Shown piece after piece: positions 4,976 to 31,770 of a stretch of 64,000 bases of DNA. The DNA is from Desulfotomaculum nigrificans DSM 574 (GTDB taxonomy: Bacteria > Bacillota > Desulfotomaculia > Desulfotomaculales > Desulfotomaculaceae): NCBI RefSeq assembly GCF_000189755.2, contig NZ_KI912183.1, positions 1,862,257-1,926,256 of the forward strand, given 5' to 3'. Numbering within the stretch: the stretch's first letter is position 1; each line of letters opens with the position of its first letter. Made by a program: the position numbers and the translations under genes. The notes beneath the pieces were generated by a model that saw only the letters and a list, made by a program, of their open reading frames with translations, was not told the DNA's origin and made no database searches.

Positions 4976-5653
4976 TTACCAGCCGCAGTTCCCCCAGTTG
5001 CTATAGCCTCTCTGGGACCACTGTCCATTGTTTTGCATATGATTGGGCCAGTTTTGGTTCATATTGTTGTTCCAGTTATTGTTGTACTGTTGTGTGCTCT
5101 GGGTGCTAGCGGCGGTTGCAGTGCTCTTTTGGTTTTGAGGGTAGTACTTACTATACCACTGTTGGCACATTTGCTGCATTGCCTGCCAGTTTTGCTGACT
5201 CACTTGGCCGTTGGGCTGCTGTTGTCTGTACTGGTTATACATACCCAGGCAATATTTAATCATTTGCTCACGGGTCATTTGGCTGCCGTTTAACATGGGG
5301 CAGTTGGGCACCCCCATTTGCACGCAAAGCTGATACATTTGGTTATACAGATCGTTCTGGTTGGTTGGTGCTTGTTGAGTATTGCTATTATTTGGGGTCG
5401 CAGTTTGGTTAGTGGTAGTGGAAGCCTGAGCCACTGTTACGGTCGGTTGCTGGGTGGTCTTAGTAGTTTGGCTAGTGGTTTGCTTGGTGCTTTGGTTCGT
5501 ATTGGTATTCATGTTCATATTCATGGGATTGGGGTCGTTTTTCATCATCTCTACCCAGGATTGAGCCGGGGCTGCATAGGCTACCCCCACTAAGCTAACA
5601 CCCATGATCAGTACCAGTAAACTAAGGAGCCAACGTTTTTTCGGTAATTTCAA
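4976..5653 (-). CDS. Secreted NDPNP/MNMN-family protein ending -CGW
   Basis: This exported protein has 225 residues. A signal peptide (PKKRWLLSLLVLIMG to AYA) is followed by WVEMMKNDPNPMNMNMNTNT, a Thr/Gln-rich linker, a Cys/Met helical domain (CPMLNGSQMTREQMIKYC) and a Gln/Asn/Trp tail ending NWGNCGW. It is a close paralogue of 31150-31770 and shares the NDPNP motif with 9324-9962. A TTG at 5653 is chosen because it is conserved in the paralogue and lies at good distance from GAAAGGA; the ATG at 5662 abuts that site. It lies 41 bp after 5695-5976, probably in one operon under box B2. Function unknown; metal binding through Met/Cys is possible. Confidence 0.8.
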   Translation of the reverse strand: MKLPKKRWLLSLLVLIMGVSLVGVAYAAPAQSWVEMMKNDPNPMNMNMNTNTNQSTKQTTSQTTKTTQQPTVTVAQASTTTNQTATPNNSNTQQAPTNQNDLYNQMYQLCVQMGVPNCPMLNGSQMTREQMIKYCLGMYNQYRQQQPNGQVSQQNWQAMQQMCQQWYSKYYPQNQKSTATAASTQSTQQYNNNWNNNMNQNWPNHMQNNGQWSQRGYSNWGNCGW

Positions 5654-5694
5654 ATTGAACATCCTTTCTACTAAATATTGTTTAAATAGGTATC

Positions 5695-5976
5695 TTACCA
5701 GCACCAGCCTCCCATGCGCCAGCCGTTGTTGTAATAATTCGTGCTGTTATTATTGCTGTTGTTTTGGTACCAGTCATAGTTTGCCTGGTAGTTTGGATTG
5801 TTGTTAAACCAGGGGCACCAGTAACCGTAGCCACGATAGTTGTAAGATCCCTGTTGGCTTGGAACAGTTTGCTGTACTCCCGCCTTTGGCACGGTAGTTT
5901 GGGCGGCCAGGGCGGTGTTGAATGGCTGAGCTACCGCCAATAGCCCCAAAACTAAACTCTTTTTCGCTAACTTCAT
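5695..5976 (-). CDS. Small secreted Tyr/Asn-rich protein ending -WCW
   Basis: This 93-residue protein starts with a signal peptide cleaved near ALAA. The mature part is Gln/Asn/Tyr-rich with YWCPW and the tail motif YQANYDWYQNN. The latter resembles the tails of 18049-18585, 21186-21446 and the frame-corrected 24286-24770 gene. It ends GGWCW. The ATG follows CAGGAGAGGGGG. Box B2 and a TAAGAT -10 lie upstream, and 4976-5653 probably follows on the same transcript. I know of no named family. Two Cys and many aromatic residues suggest a cell-surface or matrix role, but that is inference. Confidence 0.75.
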   Translation of the reverse strand: MKLAKKSLVLGLLAVAQPFNTALAAQTTVPKAGVQQTVPSQQGSYNYRGYGYWCPWFNNNPNYQANYDWYQNNSNNNSTNYYNNGWRMGGWCW

Positions 5977-6010
5977 TTTTGTTTTCCCCCTCTCCTGTTG
6001 CTTTGAGCTT

Positions 6011-6065
6011 ATCTTAACAAACCAACATCACAGGAATGTCACAGGTATTTATCATTTTTGTGATA
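6011..6065 (-). promoter_or_regulatory. Box B2 with -10 TAAGAT
   Basis: Minus-strand half-sites TGATA, TGTGA and TGTGA at 11-bp steps end about 11 bp before TAAGAT (6011-6016). They drive 5695-5976 and probably 4976-5653. Confidence 0.7.
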
Positions 6066-6171
6066 TTTCTTTGGGTGTGATCTATGTCATTGTCGAGATC
6101 TATCTGTAGTCCCTTGCTAAAATTTACAGATGGAGCCATACTGAAAGAAGCATAGTAGGGGAGTGAGGTTA

Positions 6172-6273
6172 ATGAGTGATTTTTTAACCTCGGGCTGGTT
6201 GTTCATTGCCAGTTGGCTAGCTGCCACTCTTAAGCCAATACCGTGGAAGCCAAAGCCGCTGTACCGTTATTAA
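6172..6273 (+). CDS. Possible 33-residue membrane peptide or broken gene
   Basis: An ATG at 6172 follows GGGGAGTGAGGTTA. It encodes MSDFLTSGWLFIASWLAATL and a Lys/Pro-rich end, then stops at TAA 6271. Another plus frame stays open from 6243 to 6425, so this may be the start of a frameshifted gene. Only the ribosome site and the hydrophobic stretch support it. Confidence 0.3.
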   Translation: MSDFLTSGWLFIASWLAATLKPIPWKPKPLYRY

Positions 6274-6507
6274 CCCTCGCCCAACTGCTGGGTAACCTCT
6301 CTCGGGTTTGGTTTGGTCGCCAGAATCTCTTGGCAGCCCGTAGGTTATTTTGTGTTGGGAGCCATCCCCTTGAGTATCCTCGGTCCAAAGTATTTGTGAA
6401 TTTACAAAGTGAACACTCTTTTTTTTAAGTGTCCTACCTACAGGTAGCATTTTACAACAAGAGCCTACTTTTTTACTATGTTCTGCTAATTACAAAAAAT
6501 ACACAAC

Positions 6508-6546
6508 AAAAATGCACCCGTCACCAAAATTCACGGGTGCATTAAA
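6508..6546 (-). terminator. Intrinsic terminator of the M23 gene
   Basis: ATGCACCCGT pairs with ACGGGTGCAT, followed on the minus strand by TTTTTGTTGT. Confidence 0.85.
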
Positions 6547-6565
6547 ATCCTGAGTTCTTGAATGA

Positions 6566-7972: not shown

Positions 7973-7994
7973 TGTTTTATTCCTCCTTGGCCTT

Positions 7995-8050
7995 AATCTA
8001 CCATTGTTTTGTCACAGCACTGTCACATGAACTTAAACTTTTTGTCAAAA
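7995..8050 (-). promoter_or_regulatory. Box B3 with -10 TAGATT
   Basis: Minus-strand TGTGACAGTGC and TGTGACA repeats at 11-bp steps precede TAGATT (7995-8000) for the M23 gene. Confidence 0.65.
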
Positions 8051-8164: not shown

Positions 8165-8196
8165 CCCACATAAAAATTGACTAAGTTTCGGATGTA
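8165..8196 (+). promoter_or_regulatory. SigI-type promoter P2
   Basis: CCCACATAAA, 14 nt, then CGGATG. This second promoter for 8260-8862 sits directly before the ATG at 8200 and so argues against that ATG as start. Confidence 0.65.
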
Positions 8197-8259
8197 TTTA
8201 TGGATGACCGAGAAATTAAGTTCGGTCTAAAAATATCCAAGAAAGGAAAGGATAAAGGG

Positions 8260-8862
8260 TTGATACTACATAAGAAGTGGTTCTTAACGTCACTGGTGGT
8301 AGTACTAGGCATTGCCATCGTAGGTGTTGCGAATGCCGCTACCATCAAAAACAGTCTGGCAGACCAATCCCCCAAAGCCTCGACAAGCATTACCGTTTCA
8401 TCAGCAGTAAGTGCGGATCTGGTTAACCAGATGATCCAAAACTGCTGGCAATTCAACCAGACTCTGGTTGACCAGTGGGTAAAGACTTCCGGACTAAGCC
8501 AACAGGATCTTTTAAAAATGGAACAGAGTTGGATGCAGGGAGTAATGCAGCAAAATCCCAACCTTACCCTGCAAGAGGCTTTAAAAATGGAACAAACCTG
8601 GCTGCTGAACAATATAGCTAATTTCCAAAAGGTGGCCATGATTCCCCAGCAGTCCCAAACCCAACAGGCCCAGACAAAGCAACAAGTTCAGCCGACTCAG
8701 CAAGTCCAGCCAGCTCAACAAGTACAGCAGCCTCAACAAAGTCAGCCGACAGTGAGACCCCAAACTCCTCCGGTTCAGAAGACATACCAGACACCATACT
8801 ACGGAAATAGAAATTACTCTTATGGAAACAGAAATTATTCAAATTGGAATTGCGGATGGTAA
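8260..8862 (+). CDS. Secreted MIQNCW-family Gln-rich protein ending -CGW
   Basis: This exported protein has 200 residues. The signal peptide (HKKWFLTSLVVVLGIAIVGV) ends at ANA. A helical domain reads VNQMIQNCWQFNQTLVDQW with two LLKMEQSWM/ALKMEQTWL repeats. A Gln/Pro-rich linker and an Asn/Tyr tail ending NWNCGW follow. It is a paralogue of 11484-12032. A TTG at 8260 is preferred: it sits 5-8 nt after GGAAAGGATAAA, and the ATG at 8200 falls at the expected start of the P2 transcript. Two promoters (box B4 and SigI-type P2) converge on it, which links both regulatory layers. Function unknown. Confidence 0.78.
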   Translation: MILHKKWFLTSLVVVLGIAIVGVANAATIKNSLADQSPKASTSITVSSAVSADLVNQMIQNCWQFNQTLVDQWVKTSGLSQQDLLKMEQSWMQGVMQQNPNLTLQEALKMEQTWLLNNIANFQKVAMIPQQSQTQQAQTKQQVQPTQQVQPAQQVQQPQQSQPTVRPQTPPVQKTYQTPYYGNRNYSYGNRNYSNWNCGW

Positions 8863-9323: not shown

Positions 9324-9962
9324 TTACCAACCCCAATTGGAGTTTCCTCGGCTCCACTGTTGGCCGCCGTTGCTGTTGGATTGTTGTTTCTTGGACATCG
9401 CATCCATCCAAGCTTTGTCCATCTCAAGCATTTGTTCCGGAGTCATGTTCATCATCTGCTGGTTCATATTGATACAATTCTGCATCATCTGGGTATAAAC
9501 ATCATTCTGAACGGGTTGCTGAACGTTCTTTTTAGCTGCCGCAGGTGCCTGGTTTGGGGTAGCTGTATTATTGGTATTACTGGTGGTAGCTGTGTTATTT
9601 GTCTGGGTGGTGGAACTATTAGCCCCGGTATTTGCAGTGCTAGTATCGGTATTGGTGTTCGTATTGGTGGTGCTGGCAGTATTAGTGTTTGTACTGGCAT
9701 CTGTGCTAGTGGTGGTACCAGTCTGGGTATCAACTGTAGCAGGTGTAGTTGTAGGTGCAGTTACGCTTGTGCCTGTGTTAGTGTTAGTGGTGGTGGTGGT
9801 GTTGGTATTCATGTTCATGGGCATGGGATTGGGGTCATTTTGGATCCAACCGGCCATCTTTTGCTGAAAATCAACGGGAACTGCAGCGTTAGCTATGCCC
9901 AGGGAACCTACTGCCAGACAAAGAGTAAGGGTAAAGGGAAGAATCTTTTTCTTAAAGTCCAT
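9324..9962 (-). CDS. Secreted Thr/Asn-rich NDPNP-family protein ending -WGW
   Basis: This 212-residue exported protein has a signal peptide ending ANA, then GWIQNDPNPMPMNMNTNT. A long Thr/Asn/Ser low-complexity region follows, then a short helical domain (MMQNCINMNQQMMNMTPEQM) and a tail ending NSNWGW. NDPNP plus Met-Asn repeats match 4976-5653 and 31150-31770, while the helical domain recalls the QNCW domain of 8260 and 11484. The ATG follows AGGAGGTAAATC. SigI-type promoter P3 lies 48 bp upstream. The low-complexity part may span the wall. Function unknown. Confidence 0.78.
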   Translation of the reverse strand: MDFKKKILPFTLTLCLAVGSLGIANAAVPVDFQQKMAGWIQNDPNPMPMNMNTNTTTTTNTNTGTSVTAPTTTPATVDTQTGTTTSTDASTNTNTASTTNTNTNTDTSTANTGANSSTTQTNNTATTSNTNNTATPNQAPAAAKKNVQQPVQNDVYTQMMQNCINMNQQMMNMTPEQMLEMDKAWMDAMSKKQQSNSNGGQQWSRGNSNWGW

Positions 9963-10009: not shown

Positions 10010-10041
10010 GTTATCCGAAACCCTCTCTTTTTTTATGTGGG
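10010..10041 (-). promoter_or_regulatory. SigI-type promoter P3
   Basis: On the minus strand CCCACATAAA, 14 nt, CGGATAAC lie upstream of 9324-9962. Confidence 0.65.
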
Positions 10042-10144: not shown

Positions 10145-10176
10145 CCCACATAAAACCAGCCCTTTTTTCGGAAATT
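10145..10176 (+). promoter_or_regulatory. SigI-type promoter P4
   Basis: CCCACATAAA, 14 nt, CGGAAAT lie 100 bp upstream of the RsgI-like gene at 10277 and suggest feedback control. Confidence 0.65.
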
Positions 10177-10276: not shown

Positions 10277-11386
10277 ATGAAAGCAAAAGCTATGGTGGCT
10301 AAAATAAACCCAGACAATTCATTGATGGTGGTTTTTACAGAAGACCGGCGGTTTGTTAACCTACCTTTACCGGATAATCCCCCTCCTTTAGGCTCAACCA
10401 TTCAGGTTGATTTACCGTCTGAAAAGAATTCCCTAAAAGGCTTATTAAGTACAAAATGGCTGGCGGTGGCGGCTATGCTAATGGTGGTACTAGCCATCGG
10501 TATGTTCAGTACCCTGGGGGTCTCACCGGTAGCCGCCTACGTCAACCTGGACATGAAGCCCAGCTTGCAGTTATCCGTAGATGACCAGGGTAAAGTAAAG
10601 GGAATTACCGCTCTCAATGATGAGGGTAAAAAACTGATCAATAAGATCGATGCCGACAATCAAGACCTCTATGGCCTGACTGGGGAGATTGTTCAAAAAG
10701 CAGATCAATTGGGTTATTTGGATGGGCAAAAGGATAATTTGGTGATGGTCAGTGTAACCAAGGTAAAGGATTCTGCCAATAGCCAAATTGACGAAAATAA
10801 GCTTCGTACTGTCATTCACGACCAGTTGAGTGCCAAACGCTACCCCGGTTATGTGGTGGTTAATGAAACCGATATGGATCACTGGCAGCGGGCACAAAAA
10901 TCAGGCTATAGTGTAAACCAATTGCTGATCTCCGAACAGGCTAAGACAAAAGGTATTGCCATTGATCCTCAGGCAATGCAAAAGCAGGATTATATGGAGG
11001 CGATGAAAAATTCTCACACTTCTGTTCCCATGCTGTTCCCAGAAAACAGCTGTGAGGTAACCTGGGCCAACAAAAATAGTACAGTCGGGGAGACTAAAAC
11101 ATACAGCAATCAAGCTCCCACCAACGGTGGCACCCCAAAATGGTCTGGCAACCAGCAATGGCAAAATAACCAAAACTGGAAATCCCAACAACAACAGCAG
11201 AACTGGCAGCCACAACAACAAGGCGGACATCAAACTCCCGCTCCCCAGCATATGCAAGAGGATCAAACAAATAGAAGCAACCAGTGGCAAGAAGATTCCC
11301 AGGGAAATTGGCAAGGGGATGAAAACTGGCGTGATCAAGAAAGTAGGGAAAGATCTTACGGGCAAAAATCTCGCAGTAATTGGTGA
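10277..11386 (+). CDS. rsgI: RsgI-like anti-sigma factor with Gln/Asn/Trp extracellular tail
   Basis: This single-pass membrane protein of 369 residues should bind a SigI-type sigma factor through its N-terminal RsgI domain (KAMVAKINPDNSLMVVFTED, residues 4-23). One membrane helix lies at about 60-82. The conserved juxtamembrane RsgI segment follows (AYVNLDMKPSLQLSVDDQGK). The extracellular end is Gln/Asn/Trp-rich and ends SRSNW. It resembles 19548-20873 along its length, but no sigma gene is adjacent. The orphan SigI-like gene at 16972 is the obvious candidate partner. The ATG at 10277 matches the paralogue start and follows AAAGAGG by 9 nt; the TTG at 10268 is too close. Confidence 0.85.
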   Translation: MKAKAMVAKINPDNSLMVVFTEDRRFVNLPLPDNPPPLGSTIQVDLPSEKNSLKGLLSTKWLAVAAMLMVVLAIGMFSTLGVSPVAAYVNLDMKPSLQLSVDDQGKVKGITALNDEGKKLINKIDADNQDLYGLTGEIVQKADQLGYLDGQKDNLVMVSVTKVKDSANSQIDENKLRTVIHDQLSAKRYPGYVVVNETDMDHWQRAQKSGYSVNQLLISEQAKTKGIAIDPQAMQKQDYMEAMKNSHTSVPMLFPENSCEVTWANKNSTVGETKTYSNQAPTNGGTPKWSGNQQWQNNQNWKSQQQQQNWQPQQQGGHQTPAPQHMQEDQTNRSNQWQEDSQGNWQGDENWRDQESRERSYGQKSRSNW

Positions 11387-11400: not shown

Positions 11401-11432
11401 CCCACATAAATTTACTTTTACTTACGGATATT
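11401..11432 (+). promoter_or_regulatory. SigI-type promoter P5
   Basis: CCCACATAAA, 14 nt, CGGATATT lie upstream of 11484-12032. Confidence 0.65.
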
Positions 11433-11483: not shown

Positions 11484-12032
11484 ATGAAGGTCAACAACAA
11501 ATGGTTACTTATTTTATTGATTGTGGCACTGGGTATCGCCATTGTGGGAGTGGCCAACGCCGATACCACGAATAGTAGCCAGGCCGATCAAACGGCAACC
11601 GTTACAGTTACCCCGGCAGTGAATGTTGCCACTACGGTTACACCGGATCAAGTAAAACAAATGATTCAAAATTGTTGGCAGTTAAACCAGGCTATGATTG
11701 ATCAGTGGTCCAAGGTTACCGGCCTAACTAAAGACGATCTTCTCAAGATGGAAATGACTTGGATGCAGGCAGTTATGCAGCAAAACCCCAGCCTGAGCCT
11801 GCAAGATGCAGTAAAGATGGAGCAGACCTGGATGATGAACAGCCTGACCAATTATCAATCGTCCAAGCAGATCCAAACAACTCAAATCCAGCAAACCCAG
11901 ACACAGCAAGCACCGCAACAGAACTTGGCTCCTCAGAACCCTCCACAACAGCAGGTTTACCCGAGATCCTACAATGGTAACAGACAATATTATGGCTGGA
12001 ATTGCCCCTGGAACTACAATTACTGCTGGTAA
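11484..12032 (+). CDS. Secreted MIQNCW-family protein ending -YCW
   Basis: This 182-residue exported protein is a paralogue of 8260-8862. Its signal peptide ends ANA. The helical domain reads VKQMIQNCWQLNQAMIDQW with LLKMEMTWM and AVKMEQTWM repeats, then a Gln/Thr linker and the tail GWNCPWNYNYCW. The ATG at 11484 is 9 nt from GAAAGG; the ATG at 11475 abuts that site and is less likely. P5 drives it, and an intrinsic terminator follows. Regular Trp and Met placement in the repeats may make a helical bundle. I do not recognise a named family. Confidence 0.78.
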   Translation: MKVNNKWLLILLIVALGIAIVGVANADTTNSSQADQTATVTVTPAVNVATTVTPDQVKQMIQNCWQLNQAMIDQWSKVTGLTKDDLLKMEMTWMQAVMQQNPSLSLQDAVKMEQTWMMNSLTNYQSSKQIQTTQIQQTQTQQAPQQNLAPQNPPQQQVYPRSYNGNRQYYGWNCPWNYNYCW

Positions 12033-13124: not shown

Positions 13125-13352
13125 TTACCAATAATAACCGTAGCCGTTGCCGTAATAACTAGATTGAGTATTGCCCGGTGGTGGGTACCACATACCACAG
13201 CCGCAACCATAACCATATCCGTAGGGATAGGCCGGTTGAGTGATATTAGGCTGTGGGGTGGCAGGTGCTGCCGATGCTTCTGTCACAGGAGCCACAATTG
13301 CAAGAACCGCTAAAAGAGCAAGAGACAGTAAACCAGTTTTGAATCTTTTCAT
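13125..13352 (-). CDS. Small secreted Tyr/Gly-rich protein ending -YYW
   Basis: This 75-residue protein has a clear signal peptide (MKRFKTGLLSLALLAVLAIV to ASA). The mature part of about 47 residues is Pro/Tyr/Gly-rich with YGYGYGCGCGMWYPPPG and ends NGYGYYW. It thus carries the shared terminal Trp. The ATG follows AGAAAGGAGGA, and box B6 with TACAAT lies upstream. The CGCGM cluster could bind metal. No named family is recognised. Confidence 0.72.
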   Translation of the reverse strand: MKRFKTGLLSLALLAVLAIVAPVTEASAAPATPQPNITQPAYPYGYGYGCGCGMWYPPPGNTQSSYYGNGYGYYW

Positions 13353-13380: not shown

Positions 13381-13435
13381 ATTGTAACCATGTTTTGTTA
13401 CACCAGTGTCACAACTTTTTAACATTTTTGTGATT
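13381..13435 (-). promoter_or_regulatory. Box B6 with -10 TACAAT
   Basis: Minus-strand TGTTA, TGTGA and TGTAA half-sites at 11-bp steps precede TACAAT (13381-13386). Confidence 0.7.
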
Positions 13436-15045: not shown

Positions 15046-15077
15046 CTTATCCGAAGAAGTTCTTCTATTTATGTGGG
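15046..15077 (-). promoter_or_regulatory. SigI-type promoter P6
   Basis: On the minus strand CCCACATAAA, 14 nt, CGGATAAG lie 91 bp before the SLH gene. Confidence 0.65.
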
Positions 15078-15182: not shown

Positions 15183-16322
15183 TTATTGCTCAGCCGGTCT
15201 CTCCTCAGTTAGAACGTTAATTTTTACAGTACTACCCCTGCGGAATATCTCCATTTGCACCTGGGAACCCACTTTCTTTTTCTGCAGGGTCTTACCTAAA
15301 TCTTTGTCACTTTCTATCTTACTTCCGTCGATGCTTAAAACAATATCTCCTTCATATATTCCTGCCTTATCAGCGGGTCCGCCCGGAACGACCCTGTAGA
15401 TGACAGCACCTGTGGAACCCTCATAACCAAGGTATTGCAAAATATCCGGGGTAACGGGACTGATTTGTACTCCCAGCCAGGGACGTTTTACGCTCCCCTG
15501 CTTGATCAGTTCATCTAAAACTTCTTTTACCGTGGTGGTGGGAATAGCAAAACCAATCCCCTGGGCCTGGGCGTTGATGGCAGTATTAATACCAATTACC
15601 TCACCCTTTAAATTTAATAAAGGGCCTCCGCTGTTACCCGGGTTGATAGAAGCATCGGTTTGCAGAAGGTGCTCAAAGCTGCGGCCATCTATCTCCAGTG
15701 GCCGTTCTTTGGCGCTAATAACTCCGGTGGTTACTGTGTCTTCCAAGCCAAAGGGGCTGCCAATAGCAATGACCCAATTGCCTACCCGGATTTGATTTGA
15801 ATCTCCCAGTGTAAGGGTTGACAAATCCTTTCCTTCTATTTTAAGTACAGCCAGGTCGAGGGATGGTTCTGCCCCTATTAATTGAACCGGATAGGGTTTC
15901 TTATGCCCTTTGACCAAAACTGTAATTTCTGCAGCACCCTCAATAACATGCTGGTTTGTAAGTATGTAGCCGTCTTTGGAAATAACAAATCCTGAACCAA
16001 GCCCGCTTTGATACTGGGGTTGGGGTATTATACCAAAATAACCTCTAAAAAACGGGTCATCATTAAGGGGATTATTGTTATACCCATTCATTTTAACCAC
16101 GGTGTTTATCTTGACGACAGCAGGACCTGCCTGTTCTACGATGTTGGCTATGGTATCAGGACCCACACCGGGGAAGCTGGCATAGGCCACTCCCTCTTGT
16201 TGAGCGGCTGTTCTTTGCTTTGGTGCAATATCCTTGACCAGGGTATAACCGCCGGCAAACATAATGCCTGAAAAAAAGGCCAGAACCAAGACAAATTGAG
16301 CTAGTTTCTTCCACCCTGTCAT
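15183..16322 (-). CDS. htrA: HtrA/DegP-type membrane-anchored serine protease with PDZ domain
   Basis: This 379-residue protease would degrade or refold damaged exported proteins. An N-terminal anchor (about 8-29) precedes a trypsin-like domain with the triad His125 (TNQHV), Asp156 (SLDLAVL) and Ser231 (GNSGGPL), then one PDZ domain (about 283-370). The ATG follows GAGAGGTAG. It lies downstream of 16410-16760, with a terminator between. In Bacillus subtilis CssRS controls htrA. Here an OmpR-type system lies 5 kb away, but no clear box was found directly before htrA. PDZ domains of this family bind C-termini, which matters given the Trp tails of its neighbours. Confidence 0.93.
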   Translation of the reverse strand: MTGWKKLAQFVLVLAFFSGIMFAGGYTLVKDIAPKQRTAAQQEGVAYASFPGVGPDTIANIVEQAGPAVVKINTVVKMNGYNNNPLNDDPFFRGYFGIIPQPQYQSGLGSGFVISKDGYILTNQHVIEGAAEITVLVKGHKKPYPVQLIGAEPSLDLAVLKIEGKDLSTLTLGDSNQIRVGNWVIAIGSPFGLEDTVTTGVISAKERPLEIDGRSFEHLLQTDASINPGNSGGPLLNLKGEVIGINTAINAQAQGIGFAIPTTTVKEVLDELIKQGSVKRPWLGVQISPVTPDILQYLGYEGSTGAVIYRVVPGGPADKAGIYEGDIVLSIDGSKIESDKDLGKTLQKKKVGSQVQMEIFRRGSTVKINVLTEERPAEQ

Positions 16323-16409: not shown

Positions 16410-16760
16410 TTACCAACACCAACCGTAATATCCGCCGCCCATCATGCCAGGGCCCATACCATAGTAGCCGTTGCCCATCATGGGGCCATTACCATTCTGT
16501 TGCATATAATCTTTCATGCTGTCAATTTGCTGCTTCCATGCCTTTGCTTGTTCCTCTGTGATATACCCGTATGACAGCATCTGATCTACCTGGGCCTTAC
16601 GCCATTCAAACATCTGGTTGAAATAGTCCTGAGCCTGTTGAGTATAAGAATCTTGGGCCTGTGTCTGGTCGGTACTGGTTCCCGCCGCGAAAGCCCCAGG
16701 AACCAGCATGGCCAGCATGGCCATTACAACTAACCCTAGTACAACTAACTTCTTTTTCAT
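16410..16760 (-). CDS. Secreted DUF2680/YckD-like protein ending -GWCW
   Basis: This 116-residue exported protein has a signal peptide ending AFAA. The helical middle part reads YITEEQAKAWKQQIDSM, typical of DUF2680 (YckD) proteins, which are uncharacterised cell-surface proteins. The tail is Met/Gly/Tyr-rich and ends YYGWCW. The ATG follows GGGGGAGG. Box B7 with TATAGT lies upstream. The Met-rich tail recalls 21186-21446 and could bind copper or silver, though nothing in the sequence proves this. Confidence 0.78.
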   Translation of the reverse strand: MKKKLVVLGLVVMAMLAMLVPGAFAAGTSTDQTQAQDSYTQQAQDYFNQMFEWRKAQVDQMLSYGYITEEQAKAWKQQIDSMKDYMQQNGNGPMMGNGYYGMGPGMMGGGYYGWCW

Positions 16761-16919: not shown

Positions 16920-16951
16920 CCCACAAAAAATAAAATACGTTTACGGATAAC
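16920..16951 (+). promoter_or_regulatory. SigI-type promoter P7
   Basis: CCCACAAAAA, 14 nt, CGGATAAC lie just before the SigI-like gene at 16972, suggesting autoregulation. Confidence 0.65.
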
Positions 16952-17931: not shown

Positions 17932-17987
17932 ATTGTACCCACTCTTTGTTACAGCCCCGTTACAGGTTTTTAACATTTTTGTGATAT
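17932..17987 (-). promoter_or_regulatory. Box B8 with -10 TACAAT
   Basis: Minus-strand TGTTA, TGTAA and TGTAA half-sites at 11-bp steps precede TACAAT (17932-17937). Confidence 0.7.
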
Positions 17988-18048: not shown

Positions 18049-18585
18049 TTACCAGTGTCCCATCGACCTGCTTCTCCAGCCGTTACCGTTATCGTACCAC
18101 TCATAGTTTGGCTGATAGTCCGGCGGTACAGCAATCATAGGCCCGCAATCCCAGCCGGGGTAATAACCTGGACCTGGTTGATACATGGTGTTCGGCTGGG
18201 TATTTTGTGCCGGTTGTGAGGTTAAGCCGGGCTGCGAAGCATCCTGTACCTGCTGCTGAGGTGCATTTTGCACCTGCTGTGGAGGTTGTGCAGTAGTTGT
18301 AGGCTGCCCGTTTGTGGCAGCGGGTGGTGTCGCCCCATTATCAACTGCCGAGGGATTATCATTTAATTGAGTAGCCTCTGTACTACTGCTGTTATTATTA
18401 ATAGCCGGTATTGCATCGTTGGGCGACAATAACTCTTCCTGTTGCTGCGTAGTCTGGTTCTTCTGACCGTTTTCACCCGTTATAAACTTATAAGGATCTG
18501 CGAGGACATTAGTCAGGGGCAGGACCAGGGCAAGGATGAGTATAATGCCCAGCGCAATGAGTGCTATGTTCTTCTTTGACCACAT
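18049..18585 (-). CDS. LPLTN-family anchored Gln/Asn-rich protein ending -GHW
   Basis: This 178-residue protein has a hydrophobic N-terminus (about 6-30) ending LPLTNVLADP, a long Gln/Asn/Thr/Pro linker and the tail DYQPNYEWYDNGNGW, ending SMGHW. Paralogues are the broken genes at 1760-2179 and 24286-24770. An upstream ATG at 18621 overlaps the TAGAAT -10 element, so the ATG at 18585 after GAGGGGAAGAGAG is chosen. Box B9 drives it, divergent from sigI. The YEWYDN tail recurs in 5695-5976. Function unknown; surface location is likely. Confidence 0.75.
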   Translation of the reverse strand: MWSKKNIALIALGIILILALVLPLTNVLADPYKFITGENGQKNQTTQQQEELLSPNDAIPAINNNSSSTEATQLNDNPSAVDNGATPPAATNGQPTTTAQPPQQVQNAPQQQVQDASQPGLTSQPAQNTQPNTMYQPGPGYYPGWDCGPMIAVPPDYQPNYEWYDNGNGWRSRSMGHW

Positions 18586-18716: not shown

Positions 18717-18816
18717 CGACAAATTCAGACGTTAAACTAGAGAAAAGGATTGACCCGGCATCAATATATTAGCCAGCACTTTTGTCTGCTGAAAACATGT
18801 AAGCGGAGTGATTTAT

Positions 18817-19527
18817 TTGAGCGATACAGTTTTACAACTCGTTACGTTAGCTCAACAAGGGGACGACCAGGTCCGGGAGGAATTAATTTATCAGTGCAAG
18901 CCTTTTATTCAAAAGGTCTGTTTTCATATTTGTAAGAGAAACCTGACCTGGGAAAACGATGACGAGTTAAGCATTGCCCTGCTGGCCTTTAACGAAGCCA
19001 TCAACTCTTACAGTTCGGAGAAGACAGCCAGCTTTCAGACCTTTGCCCGTCAGATTATTCATCAAAGGTTGGTGGATTTTTTCCGCCGGGAGGGACGTCA
19101 CCAGCATTTGCCCTTTTCAAGTTTTTCCGAGGAAGAAGAAACTGAGCTAAGTTTGGCCGAATGTTCCCAGTCCTTAGAAAATTACAAGTTAAAGACAGAG
19201 CAAGAAGAATTGGCCGAGATGATGATTGAGTTTGAGCAACGGCTGCAGGAATTTGGCACCTCGCTGGAAGAGCTGGCAGATGTTTGCCCAAAACATAGAG
19301 ATACCAGGGAAAAATTATTACAAGTTGCCAGAATCTTAACAGACAATGAAACTATGCTTGCCTCCTTTCATAAAACCAAACGTATTCCCGCCAAAGACCT
19401 GGAAGAATCGGCAAAGGTAAGCAGGAGAGTTTTGGAAAATGGTCGTAAATATATTGTAGCCCTGGTGATTATATTATCCGAGGCTCGATTCTCCGCCTTT
19501 AAATCCTTTGCAGGTTTGGACCGCTAG
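18817..19527 (+). CDS. sigI: RNA polymerase sigma factor SigI
   Basis: This 236-residue alternative sigma factor would direct polymerase to the CCCACATAAA/CGGATAA promoters in the window. Region 2 carries ENDDELSIALLAFNEAINSY and FQTFARQIIHQRLVDFFRRE; the SigI C-terminal domain carries CPKHRDTREKL and VSRRVLENGRKYIVALVIIL. The TTG at 18817 follows GGAGTG by 7 nt, the same layout as at 16972; the GTG at 18808 overlaps that site. rsgI starts 20 bp after the stop. In Bacillus SigI serves heat and envelope stress; in Clostridium thermocellum paralogues sense polysaccharide. Confidence 0.93.
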   Translation: MSDTVLQLVTLAQQGDDQVREELIYQCKPFIQKVCFHICKRNLTWENDDELSIALLAFNEAINSYSSEKTASFQTFARQIIHQRLVDFFRREGRHQHLPFSSFSEEEETELSLAECSQSLENYKLKTEQEELAEMMIEFEQRLQEFGTSLEELADVCPKHRDTREKLLQVARILTDNETMLASFHKTKRIPAKDLEESAKVSRRVLENGRKYIVALVIILSEARFSAFKSFAGLDR

Positions 19528-19547: not shown

Positions 19548-20873
19548 ATGAATATTAAAGCAATGGTAACCAAAATTGACAGGTCAAACAATTTGATGGT
19601 GGTCTTCACAGAAGACAGGCGGTTTATCAAACTACCTTTGCCTCCGAATGTCCCCAACCTGGGTGCAACCATACAGGTGAACTTGCAGCCGGAAAAGAAA
19701 TTGATGCATAAGCTGCTGACAACTAAGTGGTTTACAGCGGCAGCGGTCTTCCTCTTGGTTCTGGCAGCAGGTTTGTATACCTCCCTTGGAATATCGCCTG
19801 TAGCCGCCTACGTTAATTTAGACATGAAACCCCGTTTGCAACTATCCGTAAATGAACAAGGGAAAGTCACTGGTGTTACTGCCCTGAACCAAGAGGCTAA
19901 ACAATTATTGGACCGGGTGGATACCGGGCGACAGGATCTTTATCAGATTGTTAAAGATATAATGGAAGCAGTAGGTAATCAGGGTTATTTAGAACCTCAA
20001 AAGCAAAATCTGGTTATGGCTAGTGTTACTAACCTGCAGGATTCTTCCAATTATCAGGTTGATCAAACCAAGCTCCGCTCCATTATCCAGGAAGCGCTAA
20101 TTTCCCAGCATTACTCGGGTTACATCGTGATGAATAAAACCGGGCTCAATCAGTGGCAAAGGGCCCGGCAAGCAGGCCAAACAGTTAATGAATATCTTGT
20201 TTCCGAACGTGCCAGGGAAAAGGGCATCACCCTGACTCCCCGGGAATTGGATGACAGCGATTTAATGCAAGTTTTGGAAAAGTCGAATCTACCGGTTCCC
20301 ATGTTATTCCCTGAAAATACCTTGGAAGTATCACAACCAGGGGAACCTGTTTCCCCCCAACAGGGAGGAGATCATCCAAACAGTTCTTCAGCACCCAACC
20401 AGTTCTATGAAGAAAACCATTACGGTAGCTCCAGGTGGCAACAACAAAGCCAACAGTTCCCGAAAGCACCGGTACCGGCGGCAAAAAGTACTCACAGCAC
20501 TCCCGAAAAATATTATAGCAAACCAAACCAGTCAGAAGGGCACCCGGCAGACAGTGGAGCAAAAGATGCAATCGGCCAACAACAACCTGTTTGGGATATG
20601 GATAATCAATCCACGAGTAACGAACCTGTCCACGGGGATGAATCCGGTTCTCATAACCCACAGGTTCAGGAAAAAATGAACAATAATCAAAACAACCAGT
20701 GGGGCAACGAAGATACAATAGGAATGAGCCATCCAGCCCAGCAGGAACAAAGAAATACCCCGGATGACGGTAATCAAACTAATTCTACTCAACACGATTA
20801 CCAAAGAGATTCCTCAAAGCAAAATGCAGATAACAACAGTCGGCAGTCCGGGAGTAAAAGCAATGGTTGGTAG
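19548..20873 (+). CDS. rsgI: Anti-sigma-I factor RsgI
   Basis: This 441-residue single-pass membrane protein should hold SigI inactive. The N-terminal RsgI domain (KAMVTKIDRSNNLMVVFTED) is followed by one membrane helix at about 58-80, the conserved AYVNLDMKPRLQLSVNEQGK segment, a helical region and a long Gln/Asn/Ser/His extracellular tail ending SGSKSNGW. Known RsgI proteins carry sensor domains outside; here a low-complexity Trp-ended tail replaces them, as in the paralogue at 10277. The ATG follows GAAAGAGGG. It forms an operon with sigI. Release probably needs proteolysis, for which HtrA is a local candidate. Confidence 0.9.
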   Translation: MNIKAMVTKIDRSNNLMVVFTEDRRFIKLPLPPNVPNLGATIQVNLQPEKKLMHKLLTTKWFTAAAVFLLVLAAGLYTSLGISPVAAYVNLDMKPRLQLSVNEQGKVTGVTALNQEAKQLLDRVDTGRQDLYQIVKDIMEAVGNQGYLEPQKQNLVMASVTNLQDSSNYQVDQTKLRSIIQEALISQHYSGYIVMNKTGLNQWQRARQAGQTVNEYLVSERAREKGITLTPRELDDSDLMQVLEKSNLPVPMLFPENTLEVSQPGEPVSPQQGGDHPNSSSAPNQFYEENHYGSSRWQQQSQQFPKAPVPAAKSTHSTPEKYYSKPNQSEGHPADSGAKDAIGQQQPVWDMDNQSTSNEPVHGDESGSHNPQVQEKMNNNQNNQWGNEDTIGMSHPAQQEQRNTPDDGNQTNSTQHDYQRDSSKQNADNNSRQSGSKSNGW

Positions 20874-21185: not shown

Positions 21186-21446
21186 CTACCAGCATCCCAT
21201 GCCCATTCCCATATAGCCCATACCCATTTGACCCATGCCCCAGCCGTAGCCGTTGTTTGCATAGTTGTAATTGGGCTGATAGTTAGCATCATACTGGTAA
21301 TATCCGGGGTTGGTGTAAACCTGTTGCGCGGTAGTTGCCTGCTGCACGTTTGCATGGGCACCGTGGGCAAAGGCGCTGGACAGGGGCAGAGCCACTAAAC
21401 TTAAGGCCAGAACTCCCAGAAAAACAAATTTTTTGGATAATTTCAT
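21186..21446 (-). CDS. Small secreted Met/Tyr-rich protein ending -GMGCW
   Basis: This 86-residue exported protein has a signal peptide ending AFA, then HGAHANVQQATTAQQ, the tail motif NYQPNYNYANNGYGWG and a Met/Gly run ending MGMGCW. Met-rich plus one Cys recalls copper-binding peptides, but this is only composition. The ATG follows AAAAAAGGAGG. Box B11 with TATTAT lies upstream, and 20987-21175 probably shares the transcript. It shares the YxPNY tail with 5695 and 18049. Confidence 0.75.
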   Translation of the reverse strand: MKLSKKFVFLGVLALSLVALPLSSAFAHGAHANVQQATTAQQVYTNPGYYQYDANYQPNYNYANNGYGWGMGQMGMGYMGMGMGCW

Positions 21447-21476: not shown

Positions 21477-21530
21477 ATAATAACCAATGATTGTTACAGC
21501 AGTGTCACAAGCATTTAACATTTTTGTGAT
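21477..21530 (-). promoter_or_regulatory. Box B11 with -10 TATTAT
   Basis: Minus-strand TGTTA, TGTGA and TGTAA at 11-bp steps precede TATTAT (21477-21482). Confidence 0.7.
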
Positions 21531-21745: not shown

Positions 21746-23137
21746 CTAAGTTTCTGATAAGGGAAGAAAAACCGTAAAAGTGGCCCCCTTTCCTAACTCA
21801 CTTTCAACTGTTACTTTTCCGCCATGTACTTCCACGATCTTTCTCACAATAGAAAGTCCAAGTCCGGAACCGGTTCCGCGCCGGGAGCGGGATTTGTCTA
21901 CCTTGTAAAACCTCTCCCAAATATTTTCTAATTCTTCTTGTGGTATGCCGGGGCCGTTATCCTTTACAGCTATAAAGGCAAAACCTTCACGTAAACCTAA
22001 TTCCACGGCGACCATGCCACCGGCATAAGAATGGCTGATAGCGTTATCCACCAGATTTGTTAGCACCTGTTTGAGGCGGTCAATATTTCCGAAGACGGTA
22101 ATTGCTTCTGGGGGGGTAATTGTTTTTACTATTGTCTTTTTAGCCGAGGCAATTTGTTTCATCCGCTCAACCGTAATATTGACGAGCTTGTTAAGTACCA
22201 CAAACTCCATCTCTTCCATATGCCCGACTTCCATTGACCTTAGTTTTAATATGTCATTGACCAGATCCTTAAGTCGGCCCGCTTCATCCATAATATTGTG
22301 GAGATAAAACTTTTCCTGTTCCTTTGACTTTACTATGCCATCATGCAACGCCTCGGCAAACCCCTGAATAACAGTCAAGGGGGTGCGCAATTCGTGGGAA
22401 ACATCGGAAACCAATTCCTGTCTTAAACGGTCCAACCGTTCAATGTCATCAATTTTTTCTTTTAATTGTGCCGACATGCGGTTTAATGAAAGAGCTAGAC
22501 GTCCCACTTCATCATCGGAGCTTACATTTAATTGTTTACCGAAATCTCCCTCAGCAATGGCTTTAGCCGTCTTTTCCATTTCAATCAGGGGGTTGGTAAA
22601 CTTTCTGAATAAAAATATGCTTAATACCGTAGCCATGACAATCCCCAGCAACGCTCCGAAAATCGCAATCTTTAACATATTCTTAATTTGTTGTTGGATG
22701 GTTGACAAGGGACTATGGATTAAAACTGCTCCTGCAATGCGACCGTCTCTTTTCAGTGGAACTGAGGCTAAAAAAACTTCCTCATTTACCCCTGCTATTT
22801 TACCGGTGAATACCGTATTGCGGCCTGCCTTTGCTTTCTCCAACAAACCTCGGTCTACTTTATGTTCATATTTGGGCCTATTCCCGTATTGTTGATGAAA
22901 AAGGGAGTCACCACTTTCGTTTACAACTAGAATATCCGCTCCTAAAAATTGACTTAATAGCCAAATCCTTTCCTTGATCACTTCGGGTTTTGCATCTTTT
23001 TTAAAAAAAGATGCAACCTCTTCGGCTTCATAGACATAAAAACGCGCCTGCTGGTCGTAAAAAAATGTCTTGATCTGCTGGGCCTGAATAATGACCGAAA
23101 AGGAAAAGACCCCCAAAACCAACAAAACAATGGCCAC
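21746..23137 (-). CDS. OmpR-partner membrane sensor histidine kinase
   Basis: This kinase of about 463 residues has two membrane segments flanking an external domain of about 130 residues, a HAMP domain (FRKFTNPLIEMEKTAKAI) and intact H, N, G boxes (SHELRTPLTVIQGFAEAL, NLVDNAISHS, DNGPGIP, GSGLGLSIV). The layout is that of PhoR/CssS/ResE kinases. The GTG at 23137 would start inside the first membrane helix. The same frame upstream encodes KWSLKRSLVTKLW across the regulator stop, so the true start may be a rare ATT near 23185. It is cotranscribed with 23164-23856. Confidence 0.9.
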   Translation of the reverse strand: MAIVLLVLGVFSFSVIIQAQQIKTFFYDQQARFYVYEAEEVASFFKKDAKPEVIKERIWLLSQFLGADILVVNESGDSLFHQQYGNRPKYEHKVDRGLLEKAKAGRNTVFTGKIAGVNEEVFLASVPLKRDGRIAGAVLIHSPLSTIQQQIKNMLKIAIFGALLGIVMATVLSIFLFRKFTNPLIEMEKTAKAIAEGDFGKQLNVSSDDEVGRLALSLNRMSAQLKEKIDDIERLDRLRQELVSDVSHELRTPLTVIQGFAEALHDGIVKSKEQEKFYLHNIMDEAGRLKDLVNDILKLRSMEVGHMEEMEFVVLNKLVNITVERMKQIASAKKTIVKTITPPEAITVFGNIDRLKQVLTNLVDNAISHSYAGGMVAVELGLREGFAFIAVKDNGPGIPQEELENIWERFYKVDKSRSRRGTGSGLGLSIVRKIVEVHGGKVTVESELGKGATFTVFLPLSET

Positions 23138-23163
23138 CCACAGTTTGGTGACCAGGCTTCTTT

Positions 23164-23856
23164 TTAATGACCACTTATTTCGAATTTGTACCCCACTCCC
23201 CGGATGGTTTTAATGTATTCGTCTTGGTTAGGTTGTCTTTCCAGTTTAGATCTTAGGCGATTTATATGGGTATCCACCGTACGAGAATCCCCGCAGTAAT
23301 CAAAACCCCAGACCATTTCCAACAGTTGATCCCGGCTGAATATTCTGCCAGGGTTTTTTGCCAGCATCGCTAAAAGTTCGAATTCCTTGGTGGTCAAATT
23401 AATCACTTCTCCATGCATCTCCAGTTCCCTGGTTAATTCGTTCAGTTTAAAGCCAGGGTAGGAAAGGATGTGACTATTATGTTTTTCCCCGATTCCTTCT
23501 GCTCTCCTCAGCACCGCTTTTACCCGAGCCACCAGTTCCCGTGTACTAAAGGGCTTAACGATGTAGTCGTCGGCCCCCAGGTCTAACCCCAGTACCCGGT
23601 CGTTCTCTTCTCCCTTGGCTGTCAGCATCACAATAGGGATTTTTCTTTCCCGTCGCAGCATCTTGCAGACGGTCCAGCCGTCCAACACAGGCATCATTAA
23701 ATCTAATAGCACAAGGTCAATGGGTTGGCTTTTCACAATATCCAACACTTGCTGGCCATCCTCTGCTTCGCATACTGTAAATCCTTCCGCTTCCAAATAG
23801 AGCCTCACTAGTTGCCTGATACGTTCTTCATCATCGGCAATTAAAATGGTTTTCAT
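23164..23856 (-). CDS. OmpR/PhoB-family response regulator
   Basis: This 230-residue transcription factor has a receiver domain (DDEE acidic pair, phospho-acceptor Asp in LVLLDLMMP, Lys in DYIVKPF) and a winged-helix DNA-binding domain (LTTKEFELLAMLAKNPG, then RTVDTHINRLRSKLE and TIRGVGYKFE). Such regulators bind 11-bp-phased direct repeats, the layout of the 21 boxes in this window, so it is the leading candidate to bind them. The ATG follows AAGGTAGG. Its own promoter region (23895-23941) has other repeats. The kinase follows directly. Confidence 0.93.
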   Translation of the reverse strand: MKTILIADDEERIRQLVRLYLEAEGFTVCEAEDGQQVLDIVKSQPIDLVLLDLMMPVLDGWTVCKMLRRERKIPIVMLTAKGEENDRVLGLDLGADDYIVKPFSTRELVARVKAVLRRAEGIGEKHNSHILSYPGFKLNELTRELEMHGEVINLTTKEFELLAMLAKNPGRIFSRDQLLEMVWGFDYCGDSRTVDTHINRLRSKLERQPNQDEYIKTIRGVGYKFEISGH

Positions 23857-24802: not shown

Positions 24803-24857
24803 ATTTTAACTATGTAATATCACAGGAATATAACACTTCTTTAACATTTTTGTTACA
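24803..24857 (-). promoter_or_regulatory. Box B14 with -10 TAAAAT
   Basis: Minus-strand TGTTA and TGTGA half-sites precede TAAAAT (24803-24808) for the LPLTN gene at 24286-24770. Confidence 0.65.
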
Positions 24858-24912
24858 TGATTGTTTCTTTGAACACAAGTAATGAACATCATCCAAGGTT
24901 TGAAGAGATTTG

Positions 24913-24968
24913 ACTATAGCACTCCTTTGTCACATCCATGTTACAACCATTTAACGTTATTGTGATTT
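24913..24968 (-). promoter_or_regulatory. Box B15 with -10 TATAGT
   Basis: A second minus-strand box precedes TATAGT (24913-24918), about 60 bp upstream of B14. The two are tandem promoters or one is a remnant. Confidence 0.6.
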
Positions 24969-30448: not shown

Positions 30449-30995
30449 TTTCTTTGATCACCCTTTTCAACTGTTCTACTCCCTCGCCTTTAACAAAGAC
30501 GGCACTTACCACCGGAACCCCCAGCCTTTTTTGCAAAGAGGACACATTTACATCTAGCCCTAACTTTTTTGCTTCATCCATCATGTTTAAAACCAAAACA
30601 ACCGGCAAACCAGCTTCAATCAGTTGTAGTGTTAGGGGTAGCATTCTTGGCAAGTTTTTTGCGTCCACCACATGGACCACCGCTTCCGGATGTTCATTGA
30701 GCAATAGTCGGCGAGATACCGCTTCTTCTTCCGTAATAGGTAACAGCGAATACATGCCTGGTGTATCTACCACTTCGAAATACTCGTCGCCAATTTTGCC
30801 CTTACCTCTGGATACCTCCACGGTTGTACCGGGGTAGTTGGATACTGTTACATAAGCACCGGTTAGGCGGTTAAACAAAACGCTTTTGCCTACATTGGGG
30901 TTGCCTACTAAAACTACTTTTTTAAGGCCGTGCAGTTCCAGTGGTTCGGTGTCCGAACCGCAACACTTACCACCTTTTCTCATTTTTTTCAGCAA
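30429..30995 (-). CDS. feoB: FeoB N-terminal G domain, separate ORF
   Basis: This 188-residue GTPase domain has G1 GNPNVGKS, a G2-region NYPGTTVE, G3 DTPG, G4 NMMD and a G5-like SAVFVKGEG. It normally gates the FeoB permease. The TTG at 30995 follows GAGGGAGGGA. An upstream in-frame start at 31034 would overlap the Fur-like site and is rejected. It heads the feo operon under box B18 and a Fur-like site, so both iron and the box regulator may control it. It stops in the 20-bp overlap with feoB-C. Confidence 0.88.
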   Translation of the reverse strand: MLKKMRKGGKCCGSDTEPLELHGLKKVVLVGNPNVGKSVLFNRLTGAYVTVSNYPGTTVEVSRGKGKIGDEYFEVVDTPGMYSLLPITEEEAVSRRLLLNEHPEAVVHVVDAKNLPRMLPLTLQLIEAGLPVVLVLNMMDEAKKLGLDVNVSSLQKRLGVPVVSAVFVKGEGVEQLKRVIKENGKLVS

Positions 30996-31018
30996 GGAAA
31001 TCCCTCCCTCATTAAGAA

Positions 31019-31033
31019 TGATAATTAATTTCA
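31019..31033 (-). promoter_or_regulatory. Fur-like site upstream of feoB
   Basis: TGATAATTAATTTCA matches 13 of 15 positions of the 7-1-7 Fur consensus. It lies between box B18 and the feoB start. Confidence 0.6.
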
Positions 31034-31042
31034 ATTACTGAG

Positions 31043-31101
31043 AAGAATTTACCACTCCAATGTTACAGGAATGTCACAGCTATGTAACATTTTTGTGACA
31101 A
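31043..31101 (-). promoter_or_regulatory. Box B18 upstream of feoB
   Basis: Minus-strand TGTTA, TGTGA and TGTAA at 11-bp steps are followed by TAAATT as a possible -10. Confidence 0.65.
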
Positions 31102-31106
31102 AAGGA

Positions 31107-31136
31107 AAAAGACTGCCGGTATTGGCAGTCTTTGAC
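31107..31136 (-). terminator. Intrinsic terminator
   Basis: AAAGACTGCC pairs with GGCAGTCTTTTT after the stop of 31150-31770. Confidence 0.85.
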
Positions 31137-31149
31137 ACTTGTTTTTCAA

Positions 31150-31770
31150 TTACCAACCACAGTAGCCCCAGTTACCGTTTCCGCCACGATTCCAGTTATT
31201 GTTGGACCAGTTTCGATTCATGTTATTGTTCCAATTATTGCTGTATTGGTAGTTGGTGTTTTGGGATGCGGAGACATTGCTGGTGCTTTTCTGGCTTTGT
31301 GGATAATACTTACTGTACCACTGCTGGCACATTTGCTGCATAGCCTGCCAGTTTTGCTGGCTGATCTGTCCGTTTGGCTGTTGTTTTACAATCTGGTTAT
31401 AGTTACTCAGACAATATTTAATCATTTGTTCACGAGTCATTTGGCTGCCGTTTAACATCGGGCAATTCTGCATCATGGGGTAACCCACTTGCTGGCAAAG
31501 TTGGAGCATTTGATTGTAAAGATCTGTTGGCTTGGCTTGGGCTTGTTGGCTGGTATTTTGGGATACAACCGGCTGGTTGGTCTTGGCCGGCTTGTTAGAC
31601 TGAGTCGGTTGCTGGTTATTTATGTTCATATTCATATACGTAGGGTTGGGGTCGTTTTTCATCATGTCAACCCAGCTTTGAGGCGTAGCAGCATTAGCAA
31701 CTCCTACCAGGCTGATCCCTAAAATAAGTGCAAAGAGACTCAATAGCCAACGTTTCTTTGGCATTTTCAA
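31150..31770 (-). CDS. Secreted NDPNP/MNMN-family protein ending -YCGW
   Basis: This 206-residue exported protein is a close paralogue of 4976-5653. The signal peptide (PKKRWLLSLFALILGISLVG) ends ANA. WVDMMKNDPNPTYMNMNINN, a short linker, the CPMLNGSQMTREQMIKYC domain and an Asn/Trp tail ending NWGYCGW follow. The TTG at 31770 follows AGAAAGGAATGG and is conserved in the paralogue; upstream in-frame ATGs have no site. Box B19 with TAAGAT drives it. Its distance of 26 kb from the paralogue, with the same promoter type, shows the regulon is dispersed across the locus. Confidence 0.8.
   Translation of the reverse strand: MKMPKKRWLLSLFALILGISLVGVANAATPQSWVDMMKNDPNPTYMNMNINNQQPTQSNKPAKTNQPVVSQNTSQQAQAKPTDLYNQMLQLCQQVGYPMMQNCPMLNGSQMTREQMIKYCLSNYNQIVKQQPNGQISQQNWQAMQQMCQQWYSKYYPQSQKSTSNVSASQNTNYQYSNNWNNNMNRNWSNNNWNRGGNGNWGYCGW

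Follow-up and report, generated by a model that had tools for sequence, protein, structure and literature searches.

A gene cluster between positions 4976 and 31824 of a 64-kb window of the Desulfotomaculum nigrificans DSM 574 genome (bases 1862257-1926256 of 3.05 Mb; all coordinates below are positions within this window) encodes small exported proteins that end in tryptophan (Trp, W), together with a divergent SigI/RsgI sigma and anti-sigma factor system and a two-component system. On balance, the cluster is probably a cell-envelope stress regulon, governed by the W-type SigI/RsgI and an OmpR/PhoB-family two-component system, in which the Trp-ended exoproteins carry a C-terminal recognition or assembly determinant that acts after export. 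W-type denotes the divergent SigI/RsgI group with a W-rich RsgI tail; a Met/His-rich type forms a parallel group. Judging from the motifs upstream of them, the tailed genes look like one regulon that is switched on together.

In such a regulon, envelope stress would lead to the export of the small Trp-ended proteins, and their extreme C-terminus would be recognized or assembled in the wall space. The ending might dock to a common surface partner or take part in thiol-dependent cross-linking. The RsgI tail would sample the same layer and so detect when the exoprotein layer or the wall is lost or wrongly assembled; SigI would then be freed after a cut by a separate site-1 protease, a step that canonical RsgI can do without.

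RsgI-type anti-sigma factors serve as a model of the bacterial sensing of wall damage and extracellular polymers. The loci described here form a natural set where the composition of the sensor tail shifts with the neighboring exoproteins and the self-cleavage pair is lost. This makes it testable what the disordered RsgI tail senses and whether a protease can replace self-cleavage. Being short and simple to mutate, the conserved Trp ending could help to find an extracellular partner in Gram-positive cells, and its presence on several exported families points to a common job.

The terminal tryptophan in the cluster and in relatives

The tail families are A, B, C, D, E, F, G and DUF2680, plus H, which was found in relatives. 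Residues are numbered from the C-terminus (-1 being the last). The ten tailed exoproteins of the window are the following:

4976..5704, minus strand: exoprotein A1, ends NCGW
5695..5976, minus strand: exoprotein C, ends GGWCW; related to G and E
8200..8862, plus strand: exoprotein B2, ends NCGW; the true start may be near 8257
9324..9962, minus strand: exoprotein D, ends NWGW
11484..12032, plus strand: exoprotein B1, ends YNYCW
13125..13352, minus strand: exoprotein F, ends GYYW
16410..16760, minus strand: DUF2680 exoprotein, ends GWCW; PF10925 (E=4e-10)
18049..18585, minus strand: exoprotein E, ends MGHW
21186..21446, minus strand: exoprotein G, ends GMGCW
31150..31764, minus strand: exoprotein A2, ends YCGW

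The twelve Trp C-termini listed in a preliminary description of this DNA (these ten and two RsgI proteins) are all present at their stops, and the gene at 24286, which it gave as ending HWE, is a broken gene whose tail frame reads ..RRHWE. The cluster set comprises 16 intact exported or anchored products, listed by hand, of which 12 end in Trp; the exceptions are an M23 peptidase, an SLH-domain protein, an HtrA-type protease and a CAP protein. The background sample, taken from the rest of this genome, covers ~913 kb with 835 called genes. There, W is the last residue in six of the called genes and in one of the 101 that are exported-like by a crude hydropathy rule. The enrichment is significant (Fisher, 3e-12) and stays so after collapse to five W groups and four non-W groups (6e-6). 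With the automatic gene caller alone, which overlooks some small genes and thus yields fewer cluster genes than the hand list, the W-ended share is 6/8 of the exported-like and 8/32 of all called genes of the cluster. The Trp rate is thus unequal across the sampled secretome, in agreement with the preliminary claim that the ending is not due to chance. Given the composition of the tails, the chance of W ends multiplies over nine families to ~7e-12, assuming independence. In these families W occupies position -1 nine times, -3 three times, and -2 and -4 never. The same description called the families unrelated. Several families are indeed involved, but BLASTP shows overlap among A, B and D and among C, E and G, so that about five groups can be counted as independent (A/B/D, C/E/G, DUF2680, F and RsgI).

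The ending is also conserved in orthologues, a point on which the preliminary description let its idea stand or fall. The searches in other genomes covered the tail families A, B, D, E, H and DUF2680, and the class-wide search spanned 113 genomes, equal in number to those of the order. All 17 complete close homologues that were read keep the Trp end, in most cases as -CW or -CGW. The four A homologues end NCGW (genomes G003, G005 and G008; relatives are cited by G numbers for genomes and L numbers for loci) or NDW (G038), and the six B genes, in five other genomes, end YCW (four), HCW and FCW. The D homologue of G064 ends YCRW, the E homologue of G005 SGHW, and the DUF2680 protein of G005 SCW. 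The four H proteins end DGCW (three) and WCW (one); family H was picked up because its members end in W and is therefore no unbiased test of conservation, and without it the count is 13/13. In G053 one gene fuses a D-like front with a B domain, and its end is FCW all the same. A D homologue of G037 runs past the contig edge and was left out of scoring. Since the last residue is kept in all complete homologues while the preceding linker drifts in length and sequence, the Trp ending looks selected. The carriers of family B include Desulfotruncus alcoholivorax, Desulforadius tongensis, Peptococcaceae bacterium BRH_c8a and three metagenome-assembled genomes, and one scan of genome contigs found the family at seven loci, one of them near-identical to the window. 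The host group is that of mostly sulfate-reducing, Desulfotomaculum-type bacteria, and by these carriers the host itself is probably a sulfate reducer that forms spores.

Several possible sources of the ending were considered and rejected. DUF2680 itself is not the origin of the tail: among the 30 best-scoring DUF2680 loci (mostly distant, with many more matches listed beyond them) 29 end in other residues, and the sole W end is that of the protein in this cluster. At Met-type loci of the same genus the DUF2680 proteins end in K (three) or Q (one), and at Trp-tail loci in CW. A conserved fold as the explanation gave no lead on function. The predicted model of B1 has a helical core (54-137) and a disordered tail (mean pLDDT 59), and it gave 0/12 Foldseek matches at E<=0.001 and none with VIA-align at Z>=5. 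A cause at the RNA or DNA level was also dropped: the stop after the Trp codon is an ordinary TAA, TAG or TGA, and by eye there is no common downstream element. The curated sorting-signal models of NCBIfam gave no match at E<=0.1 for the ten tailed exoproteins, both RsgI proteins and one H protein, and the WGxxGxxG family of NCBIfam reached at best 18.7 bits (cut-off 35).

Besides its intact gene, family E has also left two pseudocopies, at ~1760-2180 and at 24286-24791; an in-frame stop interrupts one of them, and the other is frameshifted. In the decayed copy at ~1760-2180 the open frame ends CWWC.

The W-type SigI/RsgI, SigI-type promoter matches and the two-component system

The regulatory genes of the cluster are:

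10277..11386, plus strand: RsgI1, W-type, ends RSNW; RsgI_M (E=7e-25); Lys-Pro in place of Asn-Pro; no adjoining SigI gene
18808..19527, plus strand: SigI, W-type; sigma-70 region 2
19548..20873, plus strand: RsgI2, W-type, ends SNGW; RsgI_M (E=5e-21); Lys-Pro in place of Asn-Pro
21746..23856, minus strand: two-component system; HAMP histidine kinase (21746-~23150) and OmpR/PhoB-type regulator (23164-23856), both by Pfam

As is typical of SigI/RsgI systems, SigI adjoins an anti-sigma factor (RsgI2), and the RsgI proteins carry an RsgI_M (SEAL-like) outer domain (phmmer to PDB 8t9n, E=4e-6). The AlphaFold model of RsgI1 contains a well-predicted RsgI_M domain, in which strands 85-92 and 96-102 flank the site equivalent to Asn-Pro, followed by a low-confidence tail (266-369) that is predicted to be disordered. 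The W-type RsgI group stands apart, with six proteins in five genomes at E<=2e-160 and the next match at 5e-55; the RsgI of G037 is a 60-residue fragment. With G037 counted by its fragment, family B and W-type RsgI occur in the same six of the 113 genomes (1/C(113,6)=4e-10), which upholds the preliminary link between Trp tails and SigI/RsgI loci. The W-type SigI is 61-62% identical to the SigI of the loci in G036, G037, G051, G053 and G064, and the regulator 59-61% to its counterparts in G037, G051, G053 and G064. In G051, G064 and G053 a single locus combines SigI, W-type RsgI, this two-component system and proteins with a Trp end. G037 has SigI and the RsgI fragment, and in G036 there is no such two-component system within the 12 kb available.

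Canonical RsgI cleaves itself at an Asn-Pro pair. The cut can be placed there from chain starts in the PDB, as the second chain of solved RsgI structures begins at the Pro aligned with the canonical Asn-Pro. The pair is found in 37 of 58 RsgI rows. It is absent from all six full W-type proteins, from 11 Met/His-tailed ones and from three others, and is retained by two Met-rich RsgIs. At this column the W-type proteins have Lys-Pro (four), Thr-Ser or Ala-Asn, and self-cleavage of the canonical kind may be lost. Four RsgIs that lack Asn-Pro carry Asn-Ser instead and may still undergo another kind of self-cleavage.

The outer tail of RsgI resembles the exported proteins beside it. Its W content correlates with that of the small exported neighbors (rho 0.79, p=1e-4), as does M (0.73, p=6e-4) and to a lesser degree H (0.50, p=0.035), while K does not (-0.27, not significant); n is 18 throughout, and these p-values are optimistic as the genomes are related. 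The exact terminal Trp is present in three of the six W-type RsgIs, and four relatives end SWD, SWDRWN, QWDGMQ and KNKW.

Upstream of the genes a conserved CCCACNTAA-N15-CGRAW is found, whose -10 element reads CGGA or CGAA; the described SigI promoter has an A-tract -35 and a CGWA -10 (PMC10575876). The following matches to the SigI-type promoter lie in the cluster:

8165..8193, plus strand: of B2, exact
10013..10041, minus strand: of D, exact
10145..10173, plus strand: of RsgI1, one mismatch
11401..11429, plus strand: of B1, exact
15049..15077, minus strand: of the SLH-domain protein, exact
16920..16948, plus strand: of a short SigI-like gene, one mismatch

For the form CCCACATAA-N15-CGGAT the genome contains four exact copies, and all of them lie in the window, ahead of B2, D, B1 and the SLH-domain gene. 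Copies with one mismatch precede RsgI1 and the short SigI-like gene, and a further one sits at another place in the genome; with two mismatches allowed, the pattern is no commoner than its reversed control (28 versus 22 in all). When the form is relaxed and one mismatch at most is allowed, it is found upstream of all eight B genes in six genomes and before the SigI gene in L122, L123, L125 and L126. Its background, with the 15-base gap, is one site in 400 kb of the own genome and five in 338 kb of other loci.

The second set of motifs consists of WalR-like boxes:

6028..6054, minus strand: upstream of C, one mismatch
8012..8038, minus strand: upstream of the M23 peptidase, two mismatches
13398..13424, minus strand: upstream of F, one mismatch
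17949..17975, minus strand: upstream of the SHOCT protein, one mismatch
18637..18663, minus strand: upstream of E, exact
21494..21520, minus strand: upstream of G, one mismatch
24820..24956, minus strand: two boxes upstream of the broken E-family copy (24286-24791)
31893..31919, minus strand: upstream of A2, exact

A further box precedes the first FeoB gene, and some lie away from any gene start. In the window the pattern TGTTAA-N5-TGTNAC-N5-TGTGA is matched 16 times, with some overlaps, versus 0.04 expected. No fewer than 24 of its 25 genome matches fall inside one 88.5-kb stretch, and the reversed control gave one. The motif resembles the WalR consensus TGTWAH-N5-TGTWAH (PMC9210968) and, as for a WalRK-type box, it stands upstream of putative targets. 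In B. subtilis, WalR and SigI together are reported to activate wall genes (PMC7478892). The HAMP kinase and the OmpR/PhoB-type regulator are the likely candidate reader of the TGT boxes. The regulator falls short of WalR (YycF) itself, with 238.1 bits for the NCBIfam YycF model (cut-off 340). Among the 25 models listed, all of which stay below their cut-off, MtrA and PhoB score slightly above YycF; the regulator may still be WalR-like.

Three genes with these motifs encode products that lack a W tail:

6566-7972: M23 peptidase, with a WalR-like box upstream
13525-14955: SLH-domain protein, ends PAQ
17632-17889: SHOCT protein, with a box upstream

Some further features of the regulatory genes were noted. 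The short SigI-like gene (16972-17520) encodes a protein that, by eye, stops short of the helix-turn-helix found at the C-terminus of SigI; a SigI-type promoter match of its own precedes it here, and homologues with 43-44% identity occur in G051 and G064 (L121, L122). Another SigI-type match, with two mismatches, at 21638-21666 (plus strand) is aimed into the 3' end of the kinase gene, recurs in L141 and possibly starts an antisense or small RNA. Near the two-component system, a small protein without a Pfam match (25082-25336) has homologues with 45-64% identity in G005, G036, G051 and G064, the last with two copies. The Met/His-rich type of SigI/RsgI locus is represented by L048 (G000, 1826000-1845900), L036, L042, L043, L045, L130, L139 and L140. 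Met-rich exported neighbors occur at several of them, and Asn-Pro is absent from all but L130.

Candidate readers and other roles of the ending

The preliminary description proposed as reader a protease encoded within the cluster:

15183..16322, minus strand: HtrA-type protease with PDZ domain; not supported as a specific reader

According to this proposal the Trp tail is a ligand of the PDZ domain; unfolded exoproteins would activate HtrA, much as DegS is activated by the C-termini of OMPs, and HtrA would cleave RsgI and free SigI. DegS-type PDZ domains do read aromatic C-termini, and the PDZ-bearing HtrA lies not only in this cluster but also beside tailed genes in G005, the sole such case among the other loci compared. 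The W-type RsgIs lack the self-cleavage pair, so that a protease is plausibly needed, and with Asn-Pro gone an external site-1 protease is likelier here than for canonical RsgI. Against the proposal, constitutive site-1 cleavage is reported for B. subtilis RsgI, with release of the ectodomain as the regulated step (PMC10202637). The distribution of HtrA is also unlike that of the tailed families, as it is present (at E<=1e-60) in 105 of the 113 genomes, most of them without detected A, B, D, E or H members. Conversely, Desulforadius tongensis (G037, 99% complete) has -CW tails and no HtrA at this threshold, although a weaker HtrA may exist, and BLASTP with the window HtrA gave no match to the genes called in the 9.5-20 kb pieces of L121, L122, L123, L125 and L126, which sample W-type loci of relatives. 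A tail-reading cut of RsgI is also hard to reconcile with the exact terminal Trp in just half of the W-type RsgIs, or with G003 and G008, where an NCGW protein persists beside one canonical (Asn-Pro) RsgI each and W-type RsgI is lacking. The shift of Cys between -2 and -3 would moreover be unusual for a PDZ motif. HtrA is thus not accepted as the general reader; it stays one candidate among others, and the DegS-like scheme as a whole appears improbable.

A metal or thiol role is the strongest rival, because Cys is found close to the Trp and metal genes surround the cluster. Here, a Cys or His next to the terminal Trp and its carboxylate would bind a soft metal or form disulfides, and the exoproteins would serve as extracellular metal buffers or as a cross-linked coat. 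Cys is found at -2 or -3 in 7/10 window exoproteins and 4/4 H proteins; genes for a heavy-metal P-type ATPase, ZIP, FeoA, FeoB, ArsR-family and CcdA-type proteins are nearby; and the paralogous M-type loci are Met/His-rich. Yet D, E, F, the A protein of G038 and the RsgIs lack a Cys at these positions, Trp is more constant than Cys, and no metal-binding family of Pfam or NCBIfam was matched above its cut-off, which leaves this role rather unlikely. Alternatively there may be no specific reader: sticky, aromatic, low-complexity ends would have been duplicated and shuffled, the terminal Trp being inherited along. The overlap of the families, the D/B hybrid of G053 and the N/Q/Y/G/W-rich, low-complexity composition of the tails fit this view. 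It is at odds with the poor conservation of the tail ahead of a retained last residue, with W at -1 in all nine families and at -2 in none, and with a W end confined, among the best 30 DUF2680 loci, to the Trp-tail cluster; such passive inheritance is quite improbable.

Several observations also weigh against the envelope stress regulon itself. Its promoters and boxes are putative, being sequence matches, its regulator is not WalR itself by its NCBIfam model, and the p-values for tail composition are lowered by relatedness. Not every member has the ending (M23, SLH and SHOCT lack a W tail), D has GW at its end with no Cys close by, and in F the last residues are YYW. Among relatives, weak, N-terminal-only A relatives in G024 and G036 end MRR and MHR, and an exported protein of G003 and G008 ends RQYP. 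W tails also occur without W-type RsgI, in G005 (L041, with an H-rich RsgI) and in G003 and G008 with their single canonical RsgI; the ending is therefore not tied to W-type RsgI. Finally, a metal role would also fit the P-type ATPase, ZIP and FeoAB genes that surround the cluster.

Apart from these arguments, genes for a heavy-metal P-type ATPase and ArsR-type proteins flank the regulon at window 1-1400, in L049 and in L125; in the latter (G037), RsgI is truncated just ahead of the ATPase gene. Farther downstream, the window holds ten tRNA genes (48686-52269) arranged as near-repeats: Leu, Asp, Gly; Cys, Gly, Phe; Cys, Gly, Phe, Asp.

Comparison with known systems

The C-terminal sorting tags LPXTG, PEP-CTERM and MYXO-CTERM possess a hydrophobic segment and a basic end. 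Like these, the Trp ending is a common C-terminal signature on exported proteins of several families. Only the last two to four residues are common here, however, with neither a hydrophobic segment nor a basic end, and no NCBIfam model is matched. With the PDZ-gated proteolysis of DegS/RseA, the cluster shares aromatic free C-termini on exoproteins, an anti-sigma factor with an outer domain and a PDZ protease. It differs in that HtrA and tails do not specifically co-occur, the terminal Trp of RsgI is not fixed and outer-membrane proteins are not involved.

The likeness to WalRK (YycFG) consists of TGT direct repeats set 5 bases apart, putative targets that include an M23 peptidase as well as exported proteins, and an apparent co-control with SigI. 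In contrast, the repeats here are triple and nearly confined to 88.5 kb, and the regulator scores well below the YycF cut-off. With the SigI/RsgI systems of B. subtilis and C. thermocellum the cluster shares a SigI-like factor and an RsgI whose RsgI_M domain has relatives in PDB 8t9n, 8her and 8u9o and whose outer tail is disordered. B. subtilis SigI, too, is tied to WalRK and wall genes. The W-type RsgI departs from these systems by the missing Asn-Pro, the promoter by CG[G/A]A in place of the described CGWA, and the putative regulon by its Trp-ended exoproteins. The outer tail resembles the tails of the exoproteins, and Pfam gave no carbohydrate-binding module for it.

Literature searches returned nothing on such a Trp ending, a result that does not show the ending to be unpublished. 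As a tentative, rather doubtful extension, the ending could be a new C-terminal address, minimally -C(x)W-COOH, with a dedicated extracellular receptor in monoderms. It would be coupled to an exoprotein-mimicking RsgI tail, in Trp and Met/His versions, with self-cleavage given up for a regulated site-1 cut. Compared with the known systems, the SigI/RsgI and WalR-like parts are familiar, and the Trp-ended outputs, the lost Asn-Pro and the tail mimicry set this variant apart.

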